A DNA stretch of 64,000 nt from Hamadaea tsunoensis DSM 44101 (GTDB lineage: Bacteria > Actinomycetota > Actinomycetes > Mycobacteriales > Micromonosporaceae), in assembly GCF_000428945.1 (NCBI RefSeq), contig NZ_AUAX01000002.1, forward strand, positions 62,001 to 126,000, written 5' to 3'. Shown one piece after another: positions 40,012-56,900 of this stretch. The first letter of the stretch is position 1. Every line of letters begins with the position of its first letter. Under the pieces are notes generated by a model, which was not told where the DNA came from, searched no databases, and saw only the letters and a program-made list of their open reading frames with translations. The position numbers were made by a program, and so were the translations under genes.

Positions 40012-40230
40012 TCACGCCTCGCCCATCTTGCGGCGCAGACTGAGCGGGCGCATGTCCGTCCACACTCGCTCGATGTGGTCCAGGCAGAGCTGCTTTCCTT
40101 GCGGTACGCCGACCGTGGCCCAGCCGGCGGGCGGCGCCTGCTCGGCGGGCCAGACCGAATACTGCTCTTCCGCATTCATGACAACGAAATAAAGCAGCTC
40201 TTCATCCTCGTCGATACGTCGATCCGGCAT
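40012..40230 (-). CDS. MbtH-family NRPS accessory protein
   Basis: 72-aa protein, the normal family size. N-A-E-E-Q-Y-S-V-W-P, P-P-A-G-W, and C-L-D-H-I-E-R-V-W-T-D-M-R-P-L-S-L-R cover the MbtH signature. It binds and stabilises adenylation domains; the clients are likely the A domains at 47-52 kb and 61 kb. ATG 40230 has AAGGGG/GGAG just upstream. It is divergent from the NRPS operon. Confidence 0.95.
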   Translation of the reverse strand: MPDRRIDEDEELLYFVVMNAEEQYSVWPAEQAPPAGWATVGVPQGKQLCLDHIERVWTDMRPLSLRRKMGEA

Positions 40231-40340: not shown

Positions 40341-41735
40341 GTGACGTCAGAGCCGATCCTGCGAGGCCCTCGCGTTGGCGGTCCGTTGCCCGGCCCCCGG
40401 TCGGCTGCCCTGCTGGAGCGACAGCGGCGCCATGAGTCCAACGCCCGCAGCTATCCGCGCCGACTGCCGGTCGCATTGCGCCGCGGTCAGGGATCCTATG
40501 TGGAGGACGTGGACGGCAACGTCTTCATCGACTTCCTCACGGCCGCGGGAGTACTGCCGCTCGGGCACACGCATCCCGACGTCGTCGCGGCCACCAAGGC
40601 CCAGCTCGACCTCCTCGTCACCGGCCTGGACTTCCCCACCCAGGTGAAGTACGACTTCGTGGACGCGCACCTGGCCCTGCTGCCCCCCGAGATGCGCGAG
40701 CACGTGCGGTTCCAGTTCTGCGGGCCGGCCGGCGCCGACGCGGTCGACGCGGCCCTGAAGCTCTGCAAGACGGCCACCGGCCGCGGCACCGTCCTCGCCT
40801 TCCACGGCGCGTTCCACGGCAGCACGCACAGCGCCCTGGCCCTGACGGGATTCGTCGCGCCGAAGGAGCCGCTGGCCAATCTGATGCCCGGCGTGCACTT
40901 CCTGCCTTTTCCGTACGCGTACCGGTGCCCGCTGGGGGCCGAGCCGAGCGAGTGCGGGCAGCGCTGCATCGATTACGTCGAGCGCGTCCTGCGCGATCCG
41001 GCCAGCGGCATCCCCCGCCCGGCGGCGGTGATCATCGAGGCCGTCCAGGGTGAGGGCGGCGTCATCCCGGCGTCGGTCGAGTTCCTGCGCGGCCTGCGCC
41101 GGGTCACCGCGGAGCTCGACATCCCGCTCATCGTCGACGAGATCCAGACCGGCTACGGCCGTACCGGGCACTGGTTCGCCTTCGAGGCCGCCGGCATCAC
41201 CCCCGACGTGGTGCTGATGTCCAAGGCGGCCGGGGGCATCGGCCTGCCCACCGCGCTGATCGCGTACCACGAGAAGCTCGACCGGTGGGCGCCGGCCGCG
41301 CACACCGGGACGTTCCGCGGCAACCAGCTGGCCTTCGCCGCCGGGCTGACCGCGATCAACGTCATGCGGGAGACCGACATCCTGGAGAACGTCGTCGCCC
41401 AGGGCAAGCACGCGATGGAGCGGCTCGGCGCGCTGGCCGACGAGGTCCCCGAGGTCGGCGACGTCCGCGGCCGCGGCCTGATGCTCGGTGTCGAGGTGAT
41501 CGAGCCCGGCTCCGGCCGGCCCGACGGCGACCTCGGCCGCCGCATCCAGCGCCGGGCCCTGGAGAACGGGCTGATGCTCGAGGTCGGCGGGCGGGGCGGC
41601 GAGGTCGTCCGGCTGCTGCCGCCGCTCAACATCGACCGGCCGACGCTGGATCTCGCCCTCGACATCCTCAGCGACGCCGTGCTGCACTCCGTATCCACGG
41701 GCGGTCCCGGGGCGAGCCGGCCGGACGAACGATGA
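40341..41735 (+). CDS. Class III aminotransferase (diaminobutyrate-type)
   Basis: 464-aa PLP enzyme. PLP Lys295 lies in M-S-K-A-A-G-G-I-G-L-P; F-H-G-A-F-H-G-S-T-H and the D-E-I-Q-T-G-Y-G-R-T-G block are conserved. The closest family is L-2,4-diaminobutyrate:2-oxoglutarate aminotransferase, which makes Dab from aspartate semialdehyde; an ornithine- or other omega-amine role cannot be excluded. GTG 40341 has GGAGGGG ~8 nt upstream. First gene of the NRPS operon; its stop overlaps the next start (ATGA). Likely supplies a precursor. Confidence 0.88.
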   Translation: MTSEPILRGPRVGGPLPGPRSAALLERQRRHESNARSYPRRLPVALRRGQGSYVEDVDGNVFIDFLTAAGVLPLGHTHPDVVAATKAQLDLLVTGLDFPTQVKYDFVDAHLALLPPEMREHVRFQFCGPAGADAVDAALKLCKTATGRGTVLAFHGAFHGSTHSALALTGFVAPKEPLANLMPGVHFLPFPYAYRCPLGAEPSECGQRCIDYVERVLRDPASGIPRPAAVIIEAVQGEGGVIPASVEFLRGLRRVTAELDIPLIVDEIQTGYGRTGHWFAFEAAGITPDVVLMSKAAGGIGLPTALIAYHEKLDRWAPAAHTGTFRGNQLAFAAGLTAINVMRETDILENVVAQGKHAMERLGALADEVPEVGDVRGRGLMLGVEVIEPGSGRPDGDLGRRIQRRALENGLMLEVGGRGGEVVRLLPPLNIDRPTLDLALDILSDAVLHSVSTGGPGASRPDER

Positions 41736-42925
41736 GCCGGCGGACGATCGCCCTCGACCCGCCGGTCCCCGCAGCGCTCGCCGATGAACTGGCCAAGCGG
41801 GTCTACTTCGTCTCCGACACCATCGTCGACTTCGCGCTCGTCCGGTCCGGTCAGGACGTCGTGGCCGTCGACGTCGAGCTGTCGGCCGGCGCCGACGGCA
41901 CCGAACTCGACCGCAAGCTGCGCTGGGTGGTCGCCAACGACGTGCTGCCCCAGCAGGCGACGCCCGCCCGCGAACTGTGGCGGGCCCCGCGGACGGCCGC
42001 CTTCCACGACACCGCCTTCGATCAGCTCGTCGCGAGCGGCGCCGTGTTCGAGGCCGGCGAGGGGCAGCTCGCGGTCGGCGAGCCGGTGCTCGGCCTGATG
42101 GACGCGCTGGACGCCCTCGTGCTCGACATCGCCGCCACCGAGTTCGGCGCGGTGCAGTACCGCTACCCGACGCTGCTGCCGCTGTCGGTCCTGGAGCGGT
42201 CGGGCTACCTGAAGTCGTTCCCGCAGCAGCTGATGTTCATGGCCCGCCTGCACTCCGATGTGGACGGCTATCGGTCCTTCATGGACCAGGCCGCGGGCGG
42301 CGACCGGCTCGACATCCTGGCCCACTGCGCCGGCAGCGAGTACTTCCTGCCGCCGACCATGTGCCTGCACACCTACCACCAACTGCGCGACGCGCCACTG
42401 GCCTCACCCTCGCTCGTCGTCACCTCGCGCGGCAAGTCGTTCCGGTTCGAGACCCGCTATCGGCGTACGCTGGAACGGTTGTGGGACTTCACGATCCGCG
42501 AGATCGTCTTCGTCGGCGACCGCGAGTTCGTGCTCGACTGCCGCCAGCGGTTCCTGTCCGCGGCGATCGCCCTCGTCGAACGGCTGGGCCTGCAGGGTTT
42601 CTGCGAAGTCGCGAACGACCCCTTCTTCCTCGGCCGCAGCGCCGACCACATCTGGTCGCAGCGCCTGCTCGAGCTGAAGTACGAACTGCGCCTGAACGTC
42701 ACCGAGGACGACACGATCGCCGTCGGCTCGTTCAACTTCCACGAGCGGTTCTTCGCCGACGCCTTCGGGATCGCCGCGCCGGGGCCGGGCCGGGTCCACA
42801 CCGGCTGCGTCGGCTTCGGGCTGGAGCGCCTCGCGTACGCCTTCCTGTGCCAGCACGGGATCGACCCCGCCCACTGGCCGGACCTCGCGCCCCGCCGCAC
42901 GCAGCCGGCGCAGCCGCGGGGATGA
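41732..42925 (+). CDS. Class II aaRS-like amino acid:carrier-protein ligase
   Basis: 397-aa homologue of the catalytic core of class II (atypical Ser-type) tRNA synthetases, without a tRNA-binding arm. Motif 2 F-R-F-E (residues 237-240) and motif 3 G-C-V-G-F-G-L-E-R-L-A-Y-A (358-370) are clear. Cys211 (P-P-T-M-C-L-H-T-Y), Glu240 and Cys359 fit the Cys/Glu/Cys zinc site of the rhizobial aa:CP ligases, which charge a carrier protein's phosphopantetheine instead of tRNA. A free PCP is encoded in the same operon at 53630. It probably loads an amino acid onto that PCP; the amino acid is unknown. Confidence 0.85.
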   Translation: MSRRTIALDPPVPAALADELAKRVYFVSDTIVDFALVRSGQDVVAVDVELSAGADGTELDRKLRWVVANDVLPQQATPARELWRAPRTAAFHDTAFDQLVASGAVFEAGEGQLAVGEPVLGLMDALDALVLDIAATEFGAVQYRYPTLLPLSVLERSGYLKSFPQQLMFMARLHSDVDGYRSFMDQAAGGDRLDILAHCAGSEYFLPPTMCLHTYHQLRDAPLASPSLVVTSRGKSFRFETRYRRTLERLWDFTIREIVFVGDREFVLDCRQRFLSAAIALVERLGLQGFCEVANDPFFLGRSADHIWSQRLLELKYELRLNVTEDDTIAVGSFNFHERFFADAFGIAAPGPGRVHTGCVGFGLERLAYAFLCQHGIDPAHWPDLAPRRTQPAQPRG

Positions 42926-43923
42926 CGGCCGTGTCCAGCCGGGACGACACGCTGCGGCGGCGGGCCGAGGCCGTCCTGAGCCGTCACACGCCGACCGAGG
43001 TCGTCCGGCTGCCCCACGCCCGCCTGCAGCTGTTCGCGAAGCTGGAGTCGGCGAACGTGACGGGCAGCGCCAAGGACCGGTCGGCGATCTGGATCCTCGG
43101 CGACGCGGTCCGCACCGGCGCCATCCGCGCCGGGACGACGGTGGTGGAGTCCTCGTCGGGCAACTTCGCCCTGTCGCTGGCCACCTACTGCCACGAACTG
43201 CGCCTGGACTTCGTGCCCGTCATCGACCCGAACATCAACGACATGACCGAGCGGACCCTGCGGCGGATGTGCCGGCGGGTGGAGAAGGTGACCGAGCGCG
43301 ATCCGACCGGCGGCTTCCTGCTCAGCCGGCTGGCCCGGGTCGGCGAGCTGGTCCGCGAGATCGAGGACGCGTACTGGACCGACCAGTACTCCAACCCGGC
43401 CGGCGCCCGCGGGCACTACGAGCTCACCGGGACCGAGATCGTCGCGCAGCTGGAGCGCATCGACTACCTCTTCGTCGGGGTCGGCACCGGCGCGACCATC
43501 AACGGCCTGTCGCGCCGGGTGAAGGAGGCCAACCCGGACGTCGTCGTGGTCGCCGTCGACGTCGCCGGGTCGGCCATCTTCGGCGCGGAGCCGCACCGGC
43601 GCCTGATCCCGGGCATCGGGTCGAGCATCCGGCCGCCGCTCGTCGAGGACGCGGTCATCTCCGAGATCGTGACGGTCTCCGAGTTGGAGGAGGTCGCCGG
43701 CTGCCGCCGCCTGGTACGCGACCACGGCGTCTACGCGGGCGGTTCGACGGGCGCGGTCTACTCCGCGATCGAGTGCTACTTCGAGGGCTTCAGCGGACCG
43801 CCGCCGGTGGTGGCGTTCCTGTGCATGGACCGCGGCGACCCCTACAGCATGACCGTCTACGACGACGCGTGGGTCGCCGCGAACTTCGCACCGTCCCTGG
43901 TCACCACCACAGGTCAGTGGTAG
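42922..43923 (+). CDS. SbnA-like PLP enzyme (diaminopropionate pathway)
   Basis: 333-aa beta-family PLP enzyme of the cysteine-synthase fold. Lys51 in T-G-S-A-K-D-R-S-A, substrate loop S-S-S-G-N-F-A-L-S-L-A and phosphate loop G-V-G-T-G-A-T-I-N-G-L are intact. It matches SbnA/N-(2-amino-2-carboxyethyl)-glutamate synthases, which join O-phosphoserine and glutamate on the way to L-2,3-diaminopropionate. The SbnB-type dehydrogenase that completes the pathway is not in the window. ATG 42922 overlaps the previous stop (ATGA). Confidence 0.87.
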   Translation: MTAVSSRDDTLRRRAEAVLSRHTPTEVVRLPHARLQLFAKLESANVTGSAKDRSAIWILGDAVRTGAIRAGTTVVESSSGNFALSLATYCHELRLDFVPVIDPNINDMTERTLRRMCRRVEKVTERDPTGGFLLSRLARVGELVREIEDAYWTDQYSNPAGARGHYELTGTEIVAQLERIDYLFVGVGTGATINGLSRRVKEANPDVVVVAVDVAGSAIFGAEPHRRLIPGIGSSIRPPLVEDAVISEIVTVSELEEVAGCRRLVRDHGVYAGGSTGAVYSAIECYFEGFSGPPPVVAFLCMDRGDPYSMTVYDDAWVAANFAPSLVTTTGQW

Positions 43924-43926
43924 GCC

Positions 43927-46900
43927 ATGACGACCGACCTGTTCACGCGCCTCACCGCGCACGCCGCCGCCGACCCGGCGCGCCCGGCGCTGACGTTCCT
44001 CACCGGCCCGGCCCGGGTCGAGCTCGGCTACGGCGAACTCGTCGCCCGCGTCGGTGATCTCGCCGGGCGGCTCGCGTACCGCTTCGGCCGCGGGGAGCGG
44101 ATCCTGCTCGTCCTGCCCGCCGGCGCGGACTTCGCCGTCGCCTTCCTGGCCTGCGTCTCGGCCGGGCTGATCGCGGTACCGCTGCCCGTCCCGACGACGG
44201 CATCGGCCCGCCGCCGGCTCTTCGCGGCGGCCGCCGACAGCCGCCCCGCCGCGGTCCTCTCGCTTGCGGCCGTCCGCGACACCGTCACGAAGTCCGCCGA
44301 GGAGCACCCGCTCCGCGACGTCGCGTGGCTGCTCACCGACGCCGACGCCGAGGACACGACCGACCGCCGGCCACTCCCGGCCGCTCAGCCCGACGAACTC
44401 GCGTTCCTCCAGTACACCTCCGGCTCGACGGCCGCGCCGCGCGGCGTCATGGTGTCGCACGGCGCGCTGCTGGCCAACGAGGCGGCCATCCGGACCGCGT
44501 TCGGCGTGACCGCGGACTCCACGATCGTCAGCTGGCTGCCGCCGCACCACGACATGGGCCTCATCGGCGGCCTGCTCCAGCCGCTGTACGCCGGGGCCCG
44601 CGGCGTCATCCTCGACCCGCTGGCCTTCCTGCGCCGCCCGGCCCGGTGGCTGCAGGTGATCTCCGACGAGCGGGCCGACATCAGCGGCGCCCCCAACTTC
44701 GCCTACGACCTGTGCGTACGCACCATCGACGAGGAGGAGAAGCAGGGCCTGGACCTGAGCCGCTGGCGGGTGGCGTTCAACGGCGCCGCCCCGGTGCATC
44801 CGCAGACGCTGCGGGCCTTCTCGGCCGCCTTCGCCGGTGCGGGATTCCGGGCTTCGGCACACGTCCCGTGTTACGGCCTGGCCGAGGCGACCCTGCTGGT
44901 GGCCCGCGGCAGCGGGACGGCGACCACGTTCTCGGCCGCCGCGCTGGAGCAGGGCCGCGCCATGGCCGATCCCGCCGGCGACCGCGACCTGATCGCCTAC
45001 GATCCACCGCCCCACGCCCAGGTACGCGTCGTCGACCCCGCCACCGCCGCACCGGCCGGCGACGGGGAGGTCGGCGAGATCGTGGTGGCGGGACCGAGCA
45101 ACGGCACCGGCTACTGGGGCGACCCCGAGCGCACCGCCGGCACCTTCGGGCTCGTCCTCGACGGCGCCGGGCCCTTCGTGCGTACCGGCGACCTCGGCTT
45201 CGTCCACGATGGACGGCTGTACGTCAGCGGCCGCCACAAGGACGTCATCATCCATCGTGGACGCAACCTGCACCCCGAGGACCTCGAGGTGGAGCTGGCC
45301 GACAGCGACCCGGCCGTGCGTACCGGGCGGGCGGCGATCTTCTCCGTGTCCTCCGGTGGTGACGAAGCCGTCGTCGCCGTCCAGGAGCTCCGCCCCGGAA
45401 CTCCCGCCGAGCGCCACGCCGTGATCGCGGGCGCCATCCGGGCCGCGGTGGCCCGGGCCCATGATGTCGCCGTACGTACCGTGGTGTTGTCGGGGCCCAA
45501 CAGCGTCGCGATGACCACGAGCGGCAAGGTCGAGCGGCACACGGTCCGGCGCCGTTTCCTCGCCGGGGAACTGCGGCCGCTGTTCGTCAGCGAACTGGCA
45601 GCGCCCCAGGCGGCCGTGACGAGGTTGGCGGACCGGCTCACCGGGCACTCCCTGCCGCCGGACACCGAGGCCGTCGCGGTCGCACTCGCGGAGCACCTGC
45701 GCGACGTGCTCGGCCTGCCCGAGGTCCCCGCAACCGGCGTGGCGCCCGCGTCGCTCGGTGTCGACTCGCTGCTCGCGGTGCAGCTGCACAACGAGTTGGC
45801 CGAGGCGCTCGGCGTCGCGCTGCGCCCGACGCTGATGCTGCGCTCCGGGTCGATCATGGAGATCGCCGAGACCGCCTGCCGCGCCCGCACCGCCGAGGGA
45901 CGGCCGGAGGCGCCGCAGCCGGACGGCACGCATCTCGGCGACGGCGTCCGGCATCCAGAGTATGGCGACCCGCGGAGCCATGACACGGCCTACGAGCTGA
46001 CCGAGACCCAGCGGGCGCTGTGGTTCCTGCAGCGCGCCTACCCGGACAACTACAGCTACAACGTGACCCGCGCCTTCCGCCTCACCGGGGCCGTCGATCC
46101 CGATCGCGTCGCCGCCGCGCTCGACGCCGTCACCGCCCGGCACCCGAGCCTCCGGCTGGCCGTGCACAGCGTGGACGGCGGGCCACGGGCGACGGTCGCG
46201 CCCACCCTGCGGGTCGCGCTGCACCACGTCGACGGCTCCGATGTGGACTCCGACCGGTGGGTGGACACCTTCGCCACCACGCCGTTCGACCTCGAACACG
46301 ACCCGGTCCTGCGCGCCGCGCTGGTACGCCGCCCGGCGGACTGGCTGCTCGTCCTGTCGCTGCACCACATCGCCTGCGACGTCGCCTCGCTGACCGTCCT
46401 CCTGGCCGACTTCCTGCGCGCGTACGCCGGTGACGTCCTCGGGCCCTCGGTCGCCGCGCCGGCCGCCCGGGAGCGGCGCATCCTGGACGACGACGGGGAG
46501 CGGCTCTCGGCGTACTGGAAGGAACTGCTGGCCGGGGAACTGCCCTCGCTGGCGTTGCCGCGCCTGGGCGGCCAGCCGCAGGCCGCCGGGCAGCACCGGG
46601 GTGCGGGGGCCGCGCTGGCGGCGACCGTGCCGGGCGAGGTGAGCGCGGCGCTGTCGCGCTGGGCCCGCGAGCGCGGCCTGACGCTGCACAACGTGCTGCT
46701 GGCGGCCTACCAGGTGCTGCTGCACCGGCTCACCGGCCAGAGCGACCTGCTGGTCGGCGTCCCGACGATGGGCCGCGACGACCGGCGGACCGAGTCCTGG
46801 GTCGGCTACCTGGTCAACGCCGTGCCGGTACGGTCGCGCTACCGGCCCGGGTGCGGCTTCGAGGAGTTCGCGCAGCAGACGCAGCGTTCCGTGCTCGACG

Positions 46901-49900
46901 CGCTCGACCACCGGGACCTGCCGTTGTCGGCGATCACCCGGCTGGCCGCCGCGGAGCGCCCGGACGCCGCCTCGACGCTGTTCCAGGCGATGTTCGAGTA
47001 CTACACGACCGCGCTGCCGGGCGGAGCGGGCGCGGCGGCGGCCGTCCTCGGCGACACCGGCACCGAGCTGCCGTTGGGCGCCGCCGTGCTGAGCGGCCAC
47101 CCGCTGCCGGAACGCACGGCGCAGTCGGATCTGTCGATGAACGTCGCCGTCGTCGGCGACCGGGTCGAGCTGCGGATGCAGTACAGCACCGAGAAGGTGA
47201 CGGCGGAGCAGGCCGGGCAGGTGCTGTCCACTTTCGACACACTGCTGCGGGCGGTCGCCGAGCAACCCCGCCGGGCGCTGCGCAGCCTGCCGGTCAGCTC
47301 CGCGGCCGAGCTGCGCCGGTCGGTGGCGCTCGGCACCGGCGCGGTGATCGAGCGCACCGAGCACTACGTGCAGTCGTTCGAGCGGTACGCGGACACCGCC
47401 CCGGACGTGGTGGCGGTCGACGACGGGACGACCCGGCTGACCTACGCGCAGCTCGACCGGCGGGCCAACCACGTCGCCGAGCGGCTGCGCGCGTACGGCG
47501 TCGGCACGGACCGCACGGTCGTCGTCTGCGCGGCCCGGTCGGCGGCCTACGTCACCGCGCTGGTCGGCATCCACAAGGCCGACGGGGCCTACGTTCCGAT
47601 CAGCCCCACCGAGGCGCCCCGCCGGGCCGAGGCGATGGTCCGCGCCGTCCGGCCCGCCGTGTGCATCGTCGACGAGACCGGCCGCGACCTGCTGAGCGCC
47701 GCGCTGCCCGAGGACCTGCCGGCGTTGGTGGACTTCGCGGAGCTCACCGGCGGCGAGACGGCCGTGCGACCGGGGCACGACTGCTTCGACGAGGCAGCCG
47801 GGTTCGTCATCCACACCTCGGGCTCGACCGGCACGCCGAAGTCCGTGGTCGTGACCAACCTCGGCATGACCAACCACATCTGGCAGATGATGGAGCACTT
47901 CGGCGCCGGTCCGGGCGACTGCCTGGCCCAGACCGCGCCGGTCTCGTTCGACATCTCGGTGTGGCAGCTGCTCGCCCCGCTCGCGGTCGGCGGCCGCATC
48001 CGGGTCGTGACGGAGCCCTCGTCGCTGTCCCCGGCGGCCCTGCTGCGCGCCGTACGCGACGGCGGCGTCACGATCCTCGAACTGGTCCCCTCCATGATCA
48101 TCGCGCTCCTCGACGCGGGTCTCGCGGCCGATCCGGGCGTCCTTCGGGTCATGATCTCCACCGGCGACTCGCTCACCGACGACGTCGCCGACCGTTGGCG
48201 TACCGAGCTGCCGGAGGTTCCGCTGTTCAACGCGTACGGGCCGGCGGAGTGCAGTGACGACGTCACCATGGGACTGTGCGCGCACGGTACGCGTGCCCCG
48301 ATCTCCCCGTCGATCGGCCGCCCCCTGGCCAACACGTCCGTGCTGGTCCTCGACGACCGGCACGTGCCGGTGCCCGCCGGTGTCGTCGGCACCCTGTGCG
48401 TCGGCGGGATCGCCGTCGGGCGCGGATATCTCGGCGACCCCCGGCGTACCGCGGAAGTGTTCGTGCCCGACCCCTGGTCGGCGACCCCCGGCGCGCGGAT
48501 GTACGTGACCGGCGACCTGGGGCGGGTGGCGCCGGAGGGCGACCTGGCGTTCCTCGGCCGCGCCGACACGCAGATCAAGCTGCGCGGCATCCGGATCGAG
48601 GCCGGGGAGGTCGAGGCCGCGCTGCGCGCCGCGCCCGGCGTCGGCGACGCGGTGGTCAAAGTGGAGCGTGGCGCGTCCGGGCCCGTCCTGGTCGGCTACA
48701 TCGTGATCGGCGCCGAGGAGCCCGGAACGGGACCGGGCGAGACCCGGCTGCTGGACCCGGCCGAGGAGACCGCGATCCGGACCGGTCTCGCGCAGCGCCT
48801 GCCCCGCCAGATGATCCCGACCGTCCTCGTCCGCGTCGCCCGCCTGCCCCGCTCGGCCAACGGCAAGCTCGACTACGGCGCGCTCACCCACGCCATGGCC
48901 GCCCCGCCCCGCGACGGCGACGACCGCGGATTCGACGACCCGCTGTCGGCGACGGTCCGCTCGATCTGGGCCGACGTGCTCCAGGCGCCCGACCTCGGCT
49001 GGCAGGACAGCTTCTTCCACCTCGGCGGGCACTCGCTGCTGGCGCTCACGATGCTCGACACGGTCGGCCGGGCGCTCGGCGTGGACCTGGTCGTGGACAC
49101 CGTCTTCGCCCATCCGCGGCTCGGCGACTTCGTCACCGCGGTCCGTTCGGCGCAACGCTCGGGGCCGCCGGCCGTGGCCGCGAGCGGTGCGGGCCCGGCG
49201 GACGACGTGCCCGCCAGCGCAGCGCAGCTGCGCTTCTGGTACCTGCACGAGCTCGACCCCGACCAGCCGACCTACAACATGCCCGGCGTGCTGCGGTTGC
49301 GCGGCGACCTCGACGAGGACGCCCTGCAGGCGGCACTGCGGCACGTCCTGCGCGGCCACCCCGTTCTGACGGCCCGGTTCGGCACCGCCGGCGGCGGTCT
49401 GACCTGGACGGCGACCGAGCCCGAGGACCCGCCCGCCACACCGCTCGACCTGCGGGGCCTGCTCGCCGAACTGGGCGACGAGGCGTTCGACCGGTACCTG
49501 GAGGGGGAAGCCCTGCGCCCCTTCGACCTGCGCCGCGAACGTCCCCTGCGCGCGGTCCTGGCCCGGCTGGCCGAGGACGACTGGGCGCTGATCATCACCA
49601 TCGACCACATCGCCTGCGACGGCGTCTCGCTGTCGGTGTTCCTGGGCGACCTCGCGGACGCGTACAACCGGCTCGTGCGGGGGCTGCCACCGGCGCAGCC
49701 GACGGCCCGGTACACGTTCGCCGACTTCTGCCGCGAGGAGCGGCGGTGGCTCGACGCCCGCGACCCGGCCGAACCCTCGCCGTGGGCCGAGCTCGCGGCC
49801 GGACCGGTCACCCGCTCCCCGCTGCCCCCGGGCACACCCGACGAAGGCAGCGGCCAGCACGTCTGGACCCTGGACTCCGGCGTCTCCCGCGGCGTACGCG

Positions 49901-50505
49901 ACCTCGCCGGGCGTACCGGGACGACACCGTTCCTCGTCTTCGCCTCGGCCCTGTCCGCGCTGATGCACAGCCGCGGCGGCGGACGCGAGACGATCATGCT
50001 CGGCACCCTGGTCGCGCAACGGGACCGCGCCGAATGGCAGCACGTCGTCGGGCCGCTGCTCAACGTCTCCGTCGTCGCCTCGCGACTGTCCCTGTCGGAC
50101 ACCGTGGGCGAGGCCCTGCGGCGCGTACGCGACGGCGCGCTGCTGGCGTACCGGCAGCGGCACCTGCCGTTCCAGGACCTCACCGCCCAGCTGCGCACGG
50201 TGGCCGACGAGACCGGGGCGCCGTTCGACGTCATGCTCGTGATGCAGCCGCCCACCGAGATCCCGTCGTTCACCGGGCTGGCGGCCGGCCTGACCGAGCT
50301 GGAGCCGTCCGGCGCGCCCTATCCGCTGACCGTGGACGTCGAGCCGGGCGAGGACGCGTACCGGGTCTCGCTGCGCTACGACCGCGCCCGGTACGCCGAC
50401 CAGGACGTCAAGGACCTGGCCGCCCGGCTGGCGGACGTGCTCGCCGCGTTCGTCCGGGCACCGGCCGCCGCACTGGAGACGATCGTGCCGACGGGGGTGG
50501 CGTGA
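43927..50505 (+). CDS. NRPS 1: FAAL-ACP-C-A-PCP-C
   Basis: 2192-aa loading enzyme. Fatty acyl-AMP ligase at 1-~575 (Y-T-S-G-S-T-A-A-P-R-G from 163), ACP with Ser614 (G-V-D-S-L), C domain ~690-1120 with H-H-I-A-C-D-V at 813-819 (final Gly replaced by Val), A domain ~1150-1655 (H-T-S-G-S-T-G from 1296; Lys1647), PCP with Ser1703 (G-G-H-S-L), and a terminal C domain from ~1760 with D-H-I-A-C-D-G at 1893-1899. The A-pocket reads D-I-W-E-I-T-A-D-D-K by my alignment to GrsA, suggesting a cationic substrate such as Dap or Dab. It starts 3 nt after the previous stop. Confidence 0.93.
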   Translation: MTTDLFTRLTAHAAADPARPALTFLTGPARVELGYGELVARVGDLAGRLAYRFGRGERILLVLPAGADFAVAFLACVSAGLIAVPLPVPTTASARRRLFAAAADSRPAAVLSLAAVRDTVTKSAEEHPLRDVAWLLTDADAEDTTDRRPLPAAQPDELAFLQYTSGSTAAPRGVMVSHGALLANEAAIRTAFGVTADSTIVSWLPPHHDMGLIGGLLQPLYAGARGVILDPLAFLRRPARWLQVISDERADISGAPNFAYDLCVRTIDEEEKQGLDLSRWRVAFNGAAPVHPQTLRAFSAAFAGAGFRASAHVPCYGLAEATLLVARGSGTATTFSAAALEQGRAMADPAGDRDLIAYDPPPHAQVRVVDPATAAPAGDGEVGEIVVAGPSNGTGYWGDPERTAGTFGLVLDGAGPFVRTGDLGFVHDGRLYVSGRHKDVIIHRGRNLHPEDLEVELADSDPAVRTGRAAIFSVSSGGDEAVVAVQELRPGTPAERHAVIAGAIRAAVARAHDVAVRTVVLSGPNSVAMTTSGKVERHTVRRRFLAGELRPLFVSELAAPQAAVTRLADRLTGHSLPPDTEAVAVALAEHLRDVLGLPEVPATGVAPASLGVDSLLAVQLHNELAEALGVALRPTLMLRSGSIMEIAETACRARTAEGRPEAPQPDGTHLGDGVRHPEYGDPRSHDTAYELTETQRALWFLQRAYPDNYSYNVTRAFRLTGAVDPDRVAAALDAVTARHPSLRLAVHSVDGGPRATVAPTLRVALHHVDGSDVDSDRWVDTFATTPFDLEHDPVLRAALVRRPADWLLVLSLHHIACDVASLTVLLADFLRAYAGDVLGPSVAAPAARERRILDDDGERLSAYWKELLAGELPSLALPRLGGQPQAAGQHRGAGAALAATVPGEVSAALSRWARERGLTLHNVLLAAYQVLLHRLTGQSDLLVGVPTMGRDDRRTESWVGYLVNAVPVRSRYRPGCGFEEFAQQTQRSVLDALDHRDLPLSAITRLAAAERPDAASTLFQAMFEYYTTALPGGAGAAAAVLGDTGTELPLGAAVLSGHPLPERTAQSDLSMNVAVVGDRVELRMQYSTEKVTAEQAGQVLSTFDTLLRAVAEQPRRALRSLPVSSAAELRRSVALGTGAVIERTEHYVQSFERYADTAPDVVAVDDGTTRLTYAQLDRRANHVAERLRAYGVGTDRTVVVCAARSAAYVTALVGIHKADGAYVPISPTEAPRRAEAMVRAVRPAVCIVDETGRDLLSAALPEDLPALVDFAELTGGETAVRPGHDCFDEAAGFVIHTSGSTGTPKSVVVTNLGMTNHIWQMMEHFGAGPGDCLAQTAPVSFDISVWQLLAPLAVGGRIRVVTEPSSLSPAALLRAVRDGGVTILELVPSMIIALLDAGLAADPGVLRVMISTGDSLTDDVADRWRTELPEVPLFNAYGPAECSDDVTMGLCAHGTRAPISPSIGRPLANTSVLVLDDRHVPVPAGVVGTLCVGGIAVGRGYLGDPRRTAEVFVPDPWSATPGARMYVTGDLGRVAPEGDLAFLGRADTQIKLRGIRIEAGEVEAALRAAPGVGDAVVKVERGASGPVLVGYIVIGAEEPGTGPGETRLLDPAEETAIRTGLAQRLPRQMIPTVLVRVARLPRSANGKLDYGALTHAMAAPPRDGDDRGFDDPLSATVRSIWADVLQAPDLGWQDSFFHLGGHSLLALTMLDTVGRALGVDLVVDTVFAHPRLGDFVTAVRSAQRSGPPAVAASGAGPADDVPASAAQLRFWYLHELDPDQPTYNMPGVLRLRGDLDEDALQAALRHVLRGHPVLTARFGTAGGGLTWTATEPEDPPATPLDLRGLLAELGDEAFDRYLEGEALRPFDLRRERPLRAVLARLAEDDWALIITIDHIACDGVSLSVFLGDLADAYNRLVRGLPPAQPTARYTFADFCREERRWLDARDPAEPSPWAELAAGPVTRSPLPPGTPDEGSGQHVWTLDSGVSRGVRDLAGRTGTTPFLVFASALSALMHSRGGGRETIMLGTLVAQRDRAEWQHVVGPLLNVSVVASRLSLSDTVGEALRRVRDGALLAYRQRHLPFQDLTAQLRTVADETGAPFDVMLVMQPPTEIPSFTGLAAGLTELEPSGAPYPLTVDVEPGEDAYRVSLRYDRARYADQDVKDLAARLADVLAAFVRAPAAALETIVPTGVA

Positions 50506-53500
50506 TGACCGCAGCGCGCAACGTGCTGGTGTGCTTCGACGAGCAGTGCGCCCGCCGGCCGGACGCGATCGCGGTCGTGGACGCCGACGCGTCCCGGACC
50601 TACGCGCAGCTCGACGCCGAGTCGGCCGCGTACGCCGCGGCGCTGCGGACCGCCGGGGCCCGACCGGAGACGGTCGTGCCGGTCGTCGCCGCCCGCAGCG
50701 GTCGCTACGTCGCGATGGTGCTCGGCGTGCTGCGGGCCGGTGCCGCGTTCCTGCCCGTCGACCCGGAGACGCCGGCGCGCCGCGCCCGGGAGATGTCCAC
50801 GGCCGTCGGCGCGTCCGTCGTGTTCGCCGAGCCCGGCCGTGAAACCTATGCCGCGCAACTGCATCCGAACGTCGTCACGACTGTGCCCGAGCACGGTGGT
50901 GCGGGGCAGGGATCGGTTCACCGCGAGGACGCGGGTCTGGCCTACGTCATCTTCACCTCCGGATCCACCGGTACGCCCAAGGGCGCCATGGTCACCGACG
51001 GCGGACTGGCCAACCACACGGCCGCCAAGGTGATCGATCTGGATCTGGGCCCGGACGACGCGGTGGCCTTCACCGCCGCGCTGTCGTTCGACATCTCCGT
51101 GTGGCAGGTGCTCACCGCGCTGAGCGTCGGCGCCCGGGTCGTGGTCGCGTCGCCGGTCGACGTCTCCGAGCCGTTCGAGCTGCTGGGCTGGGTACGCCGC
51201 CACGGCGTCACCGTGCTGGAACTCGTCCCGTCCTACATGGCCGTCCTCCTCGACGAGGTGGAGCTGGACGGCGGCCTGGTCCGGTCCCTGGCGACGCTGC
51301 GGTTCCTCATCGCCACCGGCGAGGCGCTCCCGCTGGCCCTGGCCCGCCGCTGGCAGGCGCATCTTCCGCAGATCGCGCTGGTGAACGCGTACGGGCCGAC
51401 CGAATGCTCCGACGACGTCACGCATCACATCGTCACCCGGGCGGAATGCGACGCGGGCCGGCCGCCCTCGATCGGCCGCGAGATCGTCCACACGCGCATC
51501 TACCTGGTGGACACCGAAGCCGACGGCCCCGCCAGCGGTGCCGCCCTGCCGCCGGGCATGGACGGCGAGATGCTCGTCGGCGGCGACGGAGTCGGCCGCG
51601 GGTACATCGGCGACCCCGTCCGGACCGCGCTGGCGTTCGTCCCCGATCACCTGTCCGGCGTACCGGGAGCGCGGCTCTACCGCACGGGTGACCGTGCGCG
51701 GCGCGCGGCGGACGGCACCATCGACTTCCTCGGCCGCCGCGACCGCCAGATCAAGCTGCGCGGGCAGCGGGTGGAACTCGGCGAGGTCGAGGCCGAACTC
51801 GCCCGCGTGCCCGCCGTGACGGCGGCCGCGGCGGTGTTCGTCCGGCAGCGGCTGCACGCCTTCGTCACCGGCGCCGTGGACGCCGACGCCGTCCTGCGGG
51901 CTATGCGCGCCTCCGCGCCCGGCTTCCTCATCCCCCACGACGTCACCGTGCTGGACCGGCTGCCGACCAACGCGAACGGCAAGGTCGACCACGGCGCCCT
52001 GGAACGCACCCTCGCACCGCCGGAGTCCGCACAGGACAGTGCTCCGGCGGGGCCGGCCGAGGTCAGTCTGGACGGCGTACGCGCCGCCGTGGCCGAGGTC
52101 CTCGACGCCCCGCAGGTCGGACCCGACGACGACTTCTTCGCCGCCGGCGGTGACTCCCTGCTCGCGATGCGGCTGCTGTCGCTGGCCCGGGAACGCTTCG
52201 ACGCCCAGGACGTCCCCCTGCGCGGCTTCCTGGCCGAGCCGACGCCCCGCCGGCTGCTCGGCCTGCTGTCCGAGGCCCGCGCCGACGCGCACGCTCCCGA
52301 CCTCGCCGGCGAGGCGACGTCGAGCGCGCTGTCGTCCGGCCAGGAACGCCTGTGGTTCCTCGAACAGCTGCACCCGTCCCGCTACGTCCAGCTCATCCGG
52401 TTGCGCCTGGATCTGCGCGGCGACCTCGACCAGGGCGCCCTGGAGCACGCCCTCGGCGCCGTCGTCGAACGCCACGAACCGCTGCGCACGACGATCGCCA
52501 ACGACCGCGGCAAGCCGTCCGCCGTCATCGCGCCGCACGCCAAGGTGCACATCGAGGTCGTCGACGGCAGCGACCGGGACCTGTCCGGCCCCGTCGACGC
52601 GCAGGGGCTGTCGTCGCGTACGCAGACGCCGCCGCTCATGCGGGTCGAACTCGTCCGGCTGGCCCCCGACCACCACGTTCTCAGCCTGGTCATGCACCAT
52701 CTCGTCGCGGACGGCTTCTCCATCGGCGTGCTCGCCGCCGAGATCGGGGCGTTCTACCGCGCGTACCGCGAGGGTGGTCCGGACCTGCCCGCGCCCGCCT
52801 CGACCTACTCCCGCTACGTCGCCGCCGAACGCCGGTGGCTCGACGGCCCGGAGGCCGCCGCCACCGAGCAGTTCTGGCGCGACACCCTGGCCGGCGCCCC
52901 CGAGCTGGCCCTGCCGTTCACTCACCCCCACCCGGCCAGCCCCACCTTCCAGGCAGACCATGTCGTACGCGTCCTGACGCCGACCGAGACCGCGAACGTC
53001 CGCGAGGCCGCGCGGGCCGGCCGGGCGACTCCGATCATGGCGGTGACCGCCGCGCTCGCGGCCGTGCTGCGGCAGTTGAGCGGCCGCGACGACCTCGTCC
53101 TCGGCCTCGACTCCGCCAACCGGTCCTGGCCCGGCACCGAGGACCTGATCGGCACCTTCGTCAACCAGTTGCCGCTGCGCCTGCGGTGCGAGCCCGGCGA
53201 GCAGTCGTTCGCCGGCCTGCTGGACCTCGTACGCCGGCAGAGCTTCGCCGCGTACGCCCAGGACCGGCTGCCCTTCCACAAGATCGTAGCGGCGGTGAAC
53301 CCGCAGCGGCGCGCGGGCCGGTTCCCGCTGTTCCAGGTGAAGATCACCCACCAGGGCGGGTGGCGGGACACGCTGACGCTGCCGGGGCTGACGGTGACCG
53401 CGGACATGCACTCCGAACCGGTCACCGACCTCGACCTGATGCTGGACGTGTCGGGCGAGGCCGACCGGCTGCGGCTGGAGCTGGTCTACCGGCCGGAGGT

Positions 53501-53633
53501 GCTCGACCGTGCGGTCGCGGACACCTGGCTGGACGCCGTCGTCGACGTACTGCGGACGGGCTGCGCCGATCCGGCCGCCCCGATCGCACCGCAGCCGGCC
53601 GGGCCCGGCCACGAGGAAGGGAGACCGCAGTGA
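50505..53633 (+). CDS. NRPS 2: A-PCP-C
   Basis: 1042-aa enzyme. A domain 1-~505 (F-T-S-G-S-T-G-T-P-K-G from 150, Asp196 = GrsA 235, Lys493), PCP with Ser551 (G-G-D-S-L), C domain ~605-1030 with intact H-H-L-V-A-D-G at 731-737. Its A-pocket reads D-I-W-E-I-T-A-D-D-K, identical to NRPS 1, so two equal residues are expected. Since NRPS 1 ends in C and this protein begins with A, the two must dock. ATG 50505 overlaps the previous stop as TGATG. Confidence 0.93.
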   Translation: MTAARNVLVCFDEQCARRPDAIAVVDADASRTYAQLDAESAAYAAALRTAGARPETVVPVVAARSGRYVAMVLGVLRAGAAFLPVDPETPARRAREMSTAVGASVVFAEPGRETYAAQLHPNVVTTVPEHGGAGQGSVHREDAGLAYVIFTSGSTGTPKGAMVTDGGLANHTAAKVIDLDLGPDDAVAFTAALSFDISVWQVLTALSVGARVVVASPVDVSEPFELLGWVRRHGVTVLELVPSYMAVLLDEVELDGGLVRSLATLRFLIATGEALPLALARRWQAHLPQIALVNAYGPTECSDDVTHHIVTRAECDAGRPPSIGREIVHTRIYLVDTEADGPASGAALPPGMDGEMLVGGDGVGRGYIGDPVRTALAFVPDHLSGVPGARLYRTGDRARRAADGTIDFLGRRDRQIKLRGQRVELGEVEAELARVPAVTAAAAVFVRQRLHAFVTGAVDADAVLRAMRASAPGFLIPHDVTVLDRLPTNANGKVDHGALERTLAPPESAQDSAPAGPAEVSLDGVRAAVAEVLDAPQVGPDDDFFAAGGDSLLAMRLLSLARERFDAQDVPLRGFLAEPTPRRLLGLLSEARADAHAPDLAGEATSSALSSGQERLWFLEQLHPSRYVQLIRLRLDLRGDLDQGALEHALGAVVERHEPLRTTIANDRGKPSAVIAPHAKVHIEVVDGSDRDLSGPVDAQGLSSRTQTPPLMRVELVRLAPDHHVLSLVMHHLVADGFSIGVLAAEIGAFYRAYREGGPDLPAPASTYSRYVAAERRWLDGPEAAATEQFWRDTLAGAPELALPFTHPHPASPTFQADHVVRVLTPTETANVREAARAGRATPIMAVTAALAAVLRQLSGRDDLVLGLDSANRSWPGTEDLIGTFVNQLPLRLRCEPGEQSFAGLLDLVRRQSFAAYAQDRLPFHKIVAAVNPQRRAGRFPLFQVKITHQGGWRDTLTLPGLTVTADMHSEPVTDLDLMLDVSGEADRLRLELVYRPEVLDRAVADTWLDAVVDVLRTGCADPAAPIAPQPAGPGHEEGRPQ

Positions 53634-53911
53634 CGACTCCTGTCACGCCCACCGAGGCGCTCGTCGCGGAGGTGCTGTGCAAGATGCTGGAGGTCGACTC
53701 GGTCGATGTCTCCCAGGACTTCTTCGAGCTGGGCGGCCATTCGCTGCTCGCCGTCCAGGTCGTGCACGAGCTGTCCGAGCGGACCCGGCTCGACCTGGAC
53801 CTGGAGTCGTTCTTCGACCTGGCCACGGTGGACCGCATCGCCGCCGAGATCGACCGGCGGCGCGAGCTCGCCGACGCTGCGCCCGCGTACGCCGACGAGG
53901 GGGAGCTGTGA
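53630..53911 (+). CDS. Stand-alone peptidyl carrier protein
   Basis: 93-aa free PCP. F-F-E-L-G-G-H-S-L-L-A-V-Q-V-V carries the phosphopantetheine Ser38. GTG 53630 overlaps the NRPS 2 stop and its own stop overlaps the NRPS 3 start, so it lies exactly where a module's carrier is expected between two C domains. No A domain is attached. The class II ligase at 41732 is the best candidate to charge it. Confidence 0.93.
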   Translation: MTTPVTPTEALVAEVLCKMLEVDSVDVSQDFFELGGHSLLAVQVVHELSERTRLDLDLESFFDLATVDRIAAEIDRRRELADAAPAYADEGEL

Positions 53912-56900
53912 CCGGCAGCGAGCTGCTGGCCCGGCTGGACGAGTTGGGTGTCGAGCTGACGCTGGCCGGCGACCGGATCCGGTACCGCAGCCGCGCCGGC
54001 ACCGTGCCGCCGGAGCTGCTCGCGCAGATCCGGGAGCACCGCGACGAACTCGGCGCGGTGCTGGCGCGCCGCGAGCGTCTCCTGTGGCCGCCGGCCGGAG
54101 ACCCGGCCAGGAGCGGCGACCGGTCCGGTCCGCTGACCGAGTCCCAGCGCACCCTGTGGGCCACCAACCATCTCGTCGACGACGGCACGTTCAACCTGTG
54201 CGGCGCGCTGCGGCTGCGCGGGCCGCTGGACCGGGCCGCGTTCACGGCGGCGCTGGCCGACCTGGTCGAGCGGCACGCGTCCCTGCGGACGGTGTTCCCG
54301 GTCGAGCACGGTGAACCACGGCAACGCATCCTCGCCACGGCGGCCACCGCGCCGGTCGATCACGACCTGAGCGACCTGCCGGCCGACGCCGCGTACGCCG
54401 AATGCCTGCGGCAGTGCGCCGACCTGGCCGACCGGCTGCTGCCGCTGGACCCCGACCCGCCGGTACGCCTGCACCTGTTCCGCCTCGCCGACGACGATCA
54501 CGTGTTCTTCGTCGTCCTGCACCACGTCGTCGCCGACGGCGTCTCCTTCGGGATCCTCATCGACGACCTGGCGCGCTGCTACAACGCCCGGCTCGACGGT
54601 GCGGCCGCGCCGGCCCGCCCGCACGACACCGACATGATCGACTACGCGGTGTGGGAAGAGGAGTTCCAGCGCTACGGCAACCTCGCGGCACCCCGGCACT
54701 ACTGGAGCGAAGCGCTGGCCGGCGCCCCGCCGCCGCCCGTGCCGATCCCCGCCCCCGGCGCCGGATCGGCCCGCGCCCGCGGTGCCGCCCGCCAGATCGT
54801 CGTCGACCCCGACACCACCGCCGCGGTACGCGCGCTGGCCGCCACCGGACGGGCGAGCGCGTTCCTGGTCGTCGCCGCGGCCGTGGCGACCGTGCTCAGC
54901 TCGGTCACCGGACGTGACGACCTCGTCGTCGGCATGCCGGTCGCCCGGCGGGACCAGGACGGCCTGGCCGACCTGGTCGGCCTGCTCCTCGACACCGTCC
55001 CCGTACGCCTGGACCTGACGTCGGCGCCGGCCTTCCTCGAACTGGTGCACCAGGCGCGCAGATCGGTCCTCGGCGCCCTGACCCACCGCTTCGCCCCACA
55101 GGCCACCGGACCGGGTACGCGCGGCGGCCCGAAACCGGCGGAACGCGGGCTGTTCAACATTCTCGTGACCGACGCCGGGAAGCCCCTGGAGGCCGCCAGC
55201 TTCACCGGCCTGGCCGTGTCCGAAGTGGAGGTCCAGCAGATCGGGGCGAAGTTCGACCTGAACTTCCTCGTCCGCGACCTCGGCGGCACGCTGCGCGTCG
55301 ACGTCGAGTTCGACCGCGAGACGGTCGGCGACCAGGTCATCGCGGCGCTGGCGGCCGGGATCGCGACCGTCCTCGCCCGGGCCTGCGCCGACCCGTCGCT
55401 GAGCGTGGCCGCCCTCGCCGCGGAGGTGCGCCCCGAGCAGCCGGCCGCCGCGGCCACGGCGACCGCCGACGCGGCCGGCGCCCAGGAGCCGCCGGCGGAT
55501 TCCCGTGCCGTCGCGGCACTCCACGACCTCTATCGGGAAGTCCTGCGCGACGGGGCCACGCCGACCGGGCCGGACCCGCTCGACCGCGCCGACGACTCGG
55601 TGGACTTCTTCGACCTCGGCGGCGACTCGATGCGGGCCATCAAGCTCGTCAGCCTCGCCCGGGAGCGCGGCCTCGACTTCTCGCTGCGCGACGTCTACGA
55701 GCGGCCGGTGCTGCGCGATCTCGCGACACGGGCCGTCCTGCAGGAGGACGCCCCGGACCCCGGTCCTTCGGCGGCGGACCGCTTCGGTCTGCTGCCGCCC
55801 GGCAGCGCCGCCTCGTTCGGGCCGCAGGTGCAGGACGCGTACCCGATGACCGCGCTCCAGGTGGGCATGGTGTACCACCAGGAGATCGCTCCGCAGTCGC
55901 GCGTCTACCACAACCTGCTCAGCGTCCGGGTCGGCGGCATCATGCGGCCGGCCGCCTTCCGGGCCGCCGTGCAGGCCGTCGTCGCCCGCCACCCGGTGCT
56001 GCGGACCAGTTTCGAACTCGGGCACGTCGCCGGCCCGGTGCAGCGCGTCCACACCGCCGTCGAGGTGCCGGTACGGTTCGAGGACCTCACCGGCCTCGAC
56101 GCCGCGCGGCAGAGCCGCCGGATCGACGAGGTGCTCGCGGCCGAGCGGGCCACCGACTTCGACCTGGAAACCGCTCCCCTGCTGCGTTTCGTCGTGCTGT
56201 CCCTGACCGCGGACGAGTACCAGCTCGTCTTCAGCCACCACCACATCCTGCTGGACGGGTGGTCGGTCAACATCCTGTTCGACGACCTGCACCGCGCGTA
56301 CCGGCAGCAGCTCGACGGCGCGGCCGACACCGGGGAACCGCTGCGCGGGCGGCTGGCCGACTACGTCGCCCGCGAGCAGGCCGCACTGTCCGATCCGGAC
56401 GAAGAGGCGTACTGGCGGCAGCGGGCCACCACCACCGCTCCCCTGCTGACCCCGCCGACCGCCACGCCACCGGCGATGCGCCGCCTCAGCATCGACTTCG
56501 CGCCCGGCACGATCGCCGACCTGCGGCCCGCGGCCACGGCGGCCGGCGTACCGCTGAAGGCCCTGCTGCTCGCCGCGCACGTACGCGTCCTGGCCTGGCT
56601 GCTCGGCGCCGACGACATCGTCACCGGCCTCGTGCTCACCTGCCGCCCGGAGGGCCCGGACGCCGACCGGCTGCTCGGCCTGTTCCTCAACGAACTGCCG
56701 ATGTGCACCCGGCTCGGCGACCCGACCTGGGCGCAGCTGGCCCGCCAGGTGCACGCCGAGGAACTGTCCATGCTGGAGCATCGCTGGTACCCGCACGCCG
56801 CCGTGCTCAAGCAGCGGGACCAGGGACCGCTGTTCGACTCGTACTTCAACTTCACCGACTTCCACACCACCAAGCGGATGCTGGAAGAGGACCTGCGGCT

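Follow-up and report, generated by a model that had tools for sequence, protein, structure and literature searches.

Introduction

Known amino acid:carrier-protein ligases use small free carriers, and modules of nonribosomal peptide synthetases (NRPS) that lack an adenylation (A) domain can be loaded from outside by trans-acting stand-alone A domains. In 2010, Mocibob and colleagues reportedly found that homologues of seryl-tRNA synthetase (SerRS) charge carrier proteins, and are said to have proposed a link to nonribosomal synthesis. This proposal is restated in the accessible text of PMC4849084, whereas a note in proof in the accessible text of PMC2922099 holds that gene neighbourhoods instead suggest placement of the amino acid on a cell-surface sugar; the 2022 review PMC9437257, in the portion available, names the ligase family and contains no NRPS case. 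No report of a SerRS-like ligase charging an NRPS module or replacing an A domain was found in the open-access literature, outside which most subscription papers fall. The enzyme family is already known, and the replacement of an NRPS A domain by such a ligase appears new within that literature.

Here, we analyse a 64,000-nucleotide stretch of the Hamadaea tsunoensis DSM 44101 genome (contig NZ_AUAX01000002.1, positions 62,001 to 126,000, forward strand; hereafter the window), and in particular a + strand gene at 41732..42925, LIG, encoding a 397-residue SerRS-derived relative of the amino acid:carrier-protein ligases within an NRPS operon. On balance, genome comparison favours a role for LIG in charging the carrier (T) domain T4 of the third synthetase, NRPS3, with a small amino acid, most likely L-serine, in place of the A domain (A4) found there in sister lines. 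The central idea of the original prediction for this locus, that a relative of the aminoacyl-tRNA synthetases (aaRS) charges an NRPS unit instead of an A domain, is probably right in light of the sister lines and the enrichment of A-less modules described below.

Orthologous assembly lines with and without the ligase

The genes from 40341 to 62944 all lie on the + strand, overlapping or closely spaced, and encode an assembly line of the order FAAL-T-C-A-T-C, A-T-C, free peptidyl carrier protein (PCP), C-T-C-T-C, where C denotes a condensation domain. NRPS3 (53908..58824), with the domain order TubC_N docking-C4-T4-C5-T5-C6, contains no A domain and thus holds two A-less C-T modules, in the first of which C4 (54130..55398) is followed by a short linker (55399..55575) and T4 (55576..55731), and in the second of which T5 (57247..57441) is the carrier. 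The free 93-residue PCP (T3; 53630..53911; Pfam PP-binding 51 bits) sits, as originally described, in the LIG operon between two C domains, namely those closing NRPS2 and opening NRPS3. That description overlooked the two A-less modules, whose carriers T4 and T5, like the free PCP (T3), lack a cognate A domain, bringing the number of such carriers to three.

A search of 354 genomes of the family with the penicillin-acylase family gene of the operon (58821..61181) at E <= 1e-60 matched five genomes: the window's own, two at 36% identity with different clusters, and two, G735 and G535, that hold an orthologous line. In the latter pair the acylase is about 57-59% identical to that of the window, NRPS1, NRPS2 and the PCP 55-58%, the SbnA-type synthase 59-60%, NRPS3 50% and the aminotransferase only 39-41%. 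A ligase scan of the same genomes, which found matches in 58 of the 354, gave none in G735 or G535. The free PCP occupies the same place in both (58 and 55% identical), and both also have the A-less C5-T5. Module 4 of their NRPS3, in contrast, carries an adenylation domain, A4, that is absent from the window, the spacing between the C4 and T4 matches being 59 residues in the window versus 536 in G735 and 610 in G535. A4 of G735 scores 280 bits against Pfam AMP-binding and spans 476 residues by hidden Markov model. Searched against the window genome, A4 gave 32 matches, the top-scoring being the A-T protein at 61178 (40% identical), and no orthologue was found elsewhere in that genome, where no long match exceeded 41% identity. 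LIG and A4 are therefore complementary, while the free PCP and T5 occur with or without the ligase, and it follows by parsimony that LIG most likely charges T4 in trans. In a zinc-dependent active site of SerRS type, the enzyme would adenylate a small amino acid (L-serine being likeliest) and, acting in trans, load it onto the T4 phosphopantetheine, standing in for the A domain borne by module 4 in the sister lines, and C4 would then join the T4-bound residue to the peptide arriving from the free PCP.

The same comparison bears on the acceptor originally proposed, the free PCP, which would be charged by LIG and deliver its residue between C3 and C4. This carrier is free-standing and without a cognate A domain, resembling in this the carriers of known ligases, for which a carrier complex is available (PDB 4h2s), and for 15 of 18 distant relatives of LIG a gene of carrier size matching a T profile at E < 0.01 lies no more than three genes away. 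However, orthologous free PCPs are also present in both lines whose genomes gave no ligase match, the difference between the lines being A4 of module 4, and no small carrier gene lies within three genes of LIG in the window, the nearest free carrier being the fourth gene downstream, 10.7 kb off. All ten nearest neighbours of the free PCP among 240 other T domains are of A-T type, and by sequence it resembles ordinary A-loaded T domains. It also has no match at E <= 0.01 to NF005480/PRK07081, which from neighbouring names would be the carrier of the ligase PRK07080, unlike two discrete acyl carrier proteins (ACPs) tested from relatives of LIG (E 1e-11 and 1e-5, both under the model's cut-off). 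Charging of the free PCP is accordingly regarded as unlikely.

A further possibility is that LIG charges several orphan carriers (T3, T4 and T5) with one amino acid. Between window coordinates 36000 and 80000, a genome-wide A-domain search placed only A1, A2, the FAAL and the A-T protein, leaving three carriers without an A domain, and Nonomuraea L007 and G612 likewise pair LIG with two tandem A-less modules. We consider this rather doubtful, as T3 and T5 are orphaned in the ligase-less sisters as well. T5 (at the same place in L157 and L160-L161) is an orphan carrier in all three orthologous lines, and no enzyme accounting for its loading was found in any of them.

The specificity code of A4, DVYSLALVHK, is presumably not a serine code, and because of this the residue at module 4 may have changed when LIG took over from A4. 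PDB matches did not settle the specificity of A4, and a text search of the open-access literature for two diamino-acid codes returned no paper. A marker of the G681 line, used to look for another ligase-less pair, matched 10 of the 354 genomes: four matches were LIG loci already included, five were new neighbourhoods that were read, and that in G487 was left out. Of the five new neighbourhoods, four belong to different lines and the fifth, in G595, contains a broken LIG. This ligase gene (L168:12276-13103) is shortened, with a TGA falling within the matched region, and lies next to SbnA/SbnB and a C-T-C-A NRPS.

A-less modules around the ligase clade

The ligase scans yielded 65 matches in 58 of the 354 family genomes (the window's own included), 12 matches in 9 genomes of a 396-genome phylum sample (again including the window), and at least two loci in GTDB, both of which were read. 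Neighbourhoods were read for 15 close and 11 distant relatives plus G595 in the family set; in the phylum sample they were read for 7 distant loci and two close ones, G128 and G204, of which G204 belongs to the family set as well. Together with 18 others (41-56% identity to LIG), the window sequence forms a full-length group set apart by a branch with support 93/96, and all 19 match both the NF005479 and the archaeal SerRS models.

Co-occurrence of the ligase with A-less NRPS modules, to which the original prediction had pointed, was assessed by counting C domains followed by an A domain, or directly by a T domain, in the same protein. Within 20 kb of LIG, 16 of 35 modules were A-less C-T modules (12 of 19 loci, with 17 loci having any counted module), and within 10 kb this was true of 12 of 25 (9 of 19 loci, 15 with any), compared with 8 of 102 modules (5 of 40 loci) in control NRPS stretches. 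Fisher tests gave p = 2.7e-6 (20 kb) and 1.2e-5 (10 kb) for modules, and 3e-5 (12/17 vs 5/40) and 8e-4 (9/15 vs 5/40) for loci, although several LIG stretches end at contig ends and the tests are neither entirely independent nor uniform in size. The 40 controls, each 10-20 kb long and drawn from 16 of the same genomes, were hand-picked among the best C-domain matches listed, all of them on a different contig from LIG or separated from it by roughly 90 kb or more; some neighbour one another. Removal of the near-duplicates G747 and G204 left 14 of 32 modules A-less (p = 1.3e-5), and the excess was present both in loci with a dehydrogenase set (6/13) and in those without (10/22).

In a T-domain tree, the window's T4 falls together with A-less T domains from G681/G747/G717 (support 0.70), and T5 clusters with the A-less G204/G677 carriers and the G438/G456 free PCPs (0.82). 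The tree was not used as proof, as support for the joint clade was 0.16 and the neighbours of T4 were mixed when 40 controls were added.

The ligase and its probable substrate

The best NCBIfam match of LIG is the amino acid--[ACP] ligase NF005479 (155 bits, E 2e-45), followed by archaeal SerRS. The score does not reach the curated equivalog cut-off of 357 bits, and LIG is classed on its sequence as a relative of the amino acid--[ACP] ligases and not as an NF005479 equivalog. Compared with solved amino acid:carrier-protein ligases, as had been suggested, the top PDB sequence match is amino acid:[ACP] ligase 1, Bll0957 (4h2w, E 1.7e-32; 3mey, E 1.8e-32). LIG is the sole match to itself in its own genome, and Pfam barely registers it (E 0.044). 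A full-length model, built from a three-sequence alignment and serving for fold class only, is weak (mean pLDDT 63, pTM 0.61); Foldseek ranked archaeal SerRS first and then Bll0957 for this model, with 26-29% identity in the Bll0957 alignments.

The protein has a SerRS-type class II core in which motif 2 (F237-R238-x-E240; R238-F-E240 at 42443..42451) and motif 3 (G361-F-G-L-E-R366) are both present, confirming the original reading. The zinc set first proposed (C211, E240, C359) stands for the two cysteines: C211 (codon at 42362..42364), E257 (42500..42502, within TIRE) and C359 (contained with motif 3 GFGLER in 42806..42829) are each invariant in 37 of 37 aligned homologues. Bll0957 chain residues C151/E196/C299, which we take to be the native zinc ligands C131/E176/C279 after a 20-residue tag, align with LIG C211/E257/C359. 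By this alignment the zinc glutamate is therefore E257, and E240 is the motif 2 glutamate. The pocket residues F298, S333 and N335 were rejected as discriminators between serine and glycine ligases, as S333 and N335 occur in all 37 homologues and F298 in 36 of the 37.

Serine is suggested by the company that the relatives of LIG keep. A 3HCDH-type dehydrogenase and a discrete ACP lie in the same stretch for 11 of 18 close relatives, nine of these stretches also having an acyl-CoA dehydrogenase; protein families of the dehydrogenases and ACPs were checked for L007 and G438 only. No ketosynthase was found in the stretch read for four of the eleven (L007, L008, G598 and G569), and the G204 and G677 sets presumably also include amidinotransferase- and carbamoyltransferase-like genes, as in guadinomine. 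According to the accessible text of PMC6395733, formation of aminomalonyl-ACP in zwittermicin employs the seryl-AMP synthetase ZmaJ. By analogy, the gene sets of the eleven relatives would be of aminomalonyl-ACP type, the LIG relative standing in for ZmaJ. The window LIG retains 84 of the 85 residues invariant in these eleven relatives (85/85 to 85/91 when each of the eleven is left out in turn). Because of these two observations serine is the likeliest substrate of LIG. The eleven sets are located at L064:15749-19161, L066, L070, L072, L074, L080, L085, L024, L027, L007 and L008.

The window itself has no 3HCDH and discrete ACP pair beside LIG, and the making of aminomalonyl-ACP there was rejected, neither a dehydrogenase nor a discrete ACP being near LIG. 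The rest of the genome has six 3HCDH matches, on contigs C9, C18, C38 and C14, and one ACP match, which adjoins an A domain of its own. This context raises the possibility that LIG is left over from a lost aminomalonyl-type operon and is inactive or unrelated to the line, operons of that type being where its closest relatives, G438 and G456, are found. We judge this highly improbable, since every active-site residue checked is retained and LIG is co-linear with the operon. Further, contexts lacking the dehydrogenase and ACP (the window, G612, G681/G747/G717, G611/G703 and G587) require five changes on the tree, at least three of them forced by well-supported branches, which indicates that use without the dehydrogenase set recurs or persists.

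LIG could alternatively charge the diamino acid 2,3-diaminopropionate (Dap), which is about serine-sized, or diaminobutyrate (Dab). SbnA-type genes are found in the stretch read for 7 of 19 LIG loci (the window, G612, G681, G747, G717, G598 and G569), and an SbnB-like gene lies past the window's end at 75190-76161 (204 bits, under the cut-off of 327). A1 and A2 carry an identical code, DIWEITADDK, with acidic residues, read at anchor positions that we assumed. It is likely that these two domains load the diamino acid, and the aminomalonyl-type relatives would require serine, making a diamino acid substrate quite improbable. Serine charging of T4 remains the preferred interpretation.

N-terminal domain of the ligase

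An N-terminal extension of about 80 residues (domain at 41732-41989) falls outside the Bll0957 alignment. Modelled alone, the first 86 residues gave a strand-helix-strand-strand-helix arrangement with a mean pLDDT of 88; this model matched no PDB fold at E <= 0.001, and the 50 fold matches listed included no synthetase. The extension likewise had no PDB sequence match (best E 0.08) and no shared Pfam hit. A tRNA-binding domain, which would count against the original prediction, is not recognised by sequence or fold, but profile alignments of LIG to SerRS extend back to residue 37 and full-model Foldseek alignments to archaeal SerRS cover 380-395 columns, such that part of this domain might be remotely related to SerRS. 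The domain may bind the carrier or the NRPS. The extension was rejected as a hallmark of the close clade, since a stretch of 77-97 residues occupies this position in 7 of 18 distant relatives too; these stretches score no more than 8.9 bits against the close clade's profile, and the remaining 11 of 18 have no such stretch.

Remainder of the gene cluster

Upstream of LIG are a gene on the - strand for what we take, from its sequence, to be an MbtH-like protein (40012..40230) and a + strand gene of the diaminobutyrate aminotransferase family (40341..41735; TIGR00709, above cut-off). LIG is followed on the + strand by an SbnA-type 2,3-diaminopropionate synthase gene (42922..43923; TIGR03945, above cut-off), NRPS1 (43927..50505; FAAL-T0-C1-A1-T1-C2) and NRPS2 (50505..53633; A2-T2-C3). 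The free PCP ends in EGEL, conserved in one of the two sisters, which may dock to the TubC_N domain of NRPS3. Beyond the acylase is the + strand gene for the separate A-T protein (61178..62944), whose code, DALWLGGTFK, is presumably Val-like. An FGE-sulfatase family gene at L021:13082-13867 (window coordinate 73082-73867) has counterparts at 60% identity within both sister clusters, and the cluster therefore extends past the window's end. A called 51-residue open reading frame at L021:9754-9909 (window coordinate 69754-69909), beside P450 genes, could be either a precursor peptide or a chance reading frame.

Discussion

From the comparison of genomes, on which the case is built, we infer the activity of LIG, serine as its substrate and T4 as its acceptor. 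A number of observations weigh against this interpretation. The A4 swap is seen in one lineage: G735 and G535 are related to each other (75-83% identical over seven proteins), and the presence of LIG with the absence of A4 amounts to a single lineage comparison and one correlated difference. The comparison neither polarises loss against gain of A4 nor dates an A4 loss or the arrival of LIG. Further A proteins absent from the window are present in the sisters, and the A-less C5-T5 found in both indicates that such a module occurs without the ligase. More generally, 5 of 40 control loci have A-less modules without LIG, 7 of 19 LIG loci have no A-less C-T module in the stretch read, and only three of the ten T domains nearest to T4 are A-less. 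With regard to the enzyme itself, its score is far below the NCBIfam equivalog cut-off, and F205 is unique to the window LIG, all 18 close relatives having a cysteine at that site. The A4 code, by our assumption, differs from serine codes.

The broader interpretation, that a clade of SerRS-derived ligases would act as trans adenylating enzymes for NRPS, here replacing an in-line A domain and charging an embedded carrier without tRNA, seems to us evenly balanced. The ligase clade provides genomic evidence that some members of the family serve NRPS lines, a link that has been proposed but disputed, and the paired clusters, with A4 or with LIG, allow this to be tested. If the interpretation is true, an adenylating enzyme outside the ANL superfamily would join NRPS prediction and engineering, seemingly inactive A-less modules may be charged by a ligase nearly invisible to Pfam, and an assembly line would draw an amino acid from an aaRS-type enzyme without tRNA.

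Among known systems, the Bll0957 / PRK07080 ligases (PDB 3mey, 4h2s) share with LIG the SerRS-derived class II core, the aligned zinc triad, motifs 2 and 3 and the lack of a recognised tRNA-binding domain. LIG differs from them in its N-terminal domain, in having no dedicated small carrier adjacent to it, and in its location in an NRPS operon with A-less modules. Archaeal-type SerRS (PDB 3w3s, 2cim) has the catalytic core and zinc site in common with LIG, whose N-terminal domain, however, has no significant PDB fold or sequence match. The relatives of LIG share with the aminomalonyl-ACP set of zwittermicin the 3HCDH, the acyl-CoA dehydrogenase, the discrete ACP and the need for a serine loader; ZmaJ, however, is a seryl-AMP synthetase domain, as given in the accessible text of PMC6395733, while LIG is aaRS-derived, and the window lacks the dehydrogenases and discrete ACP. 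Compared with trans-acting stand-alone A domains, LIG would fill a similar role with a different protein fold and ancestry.

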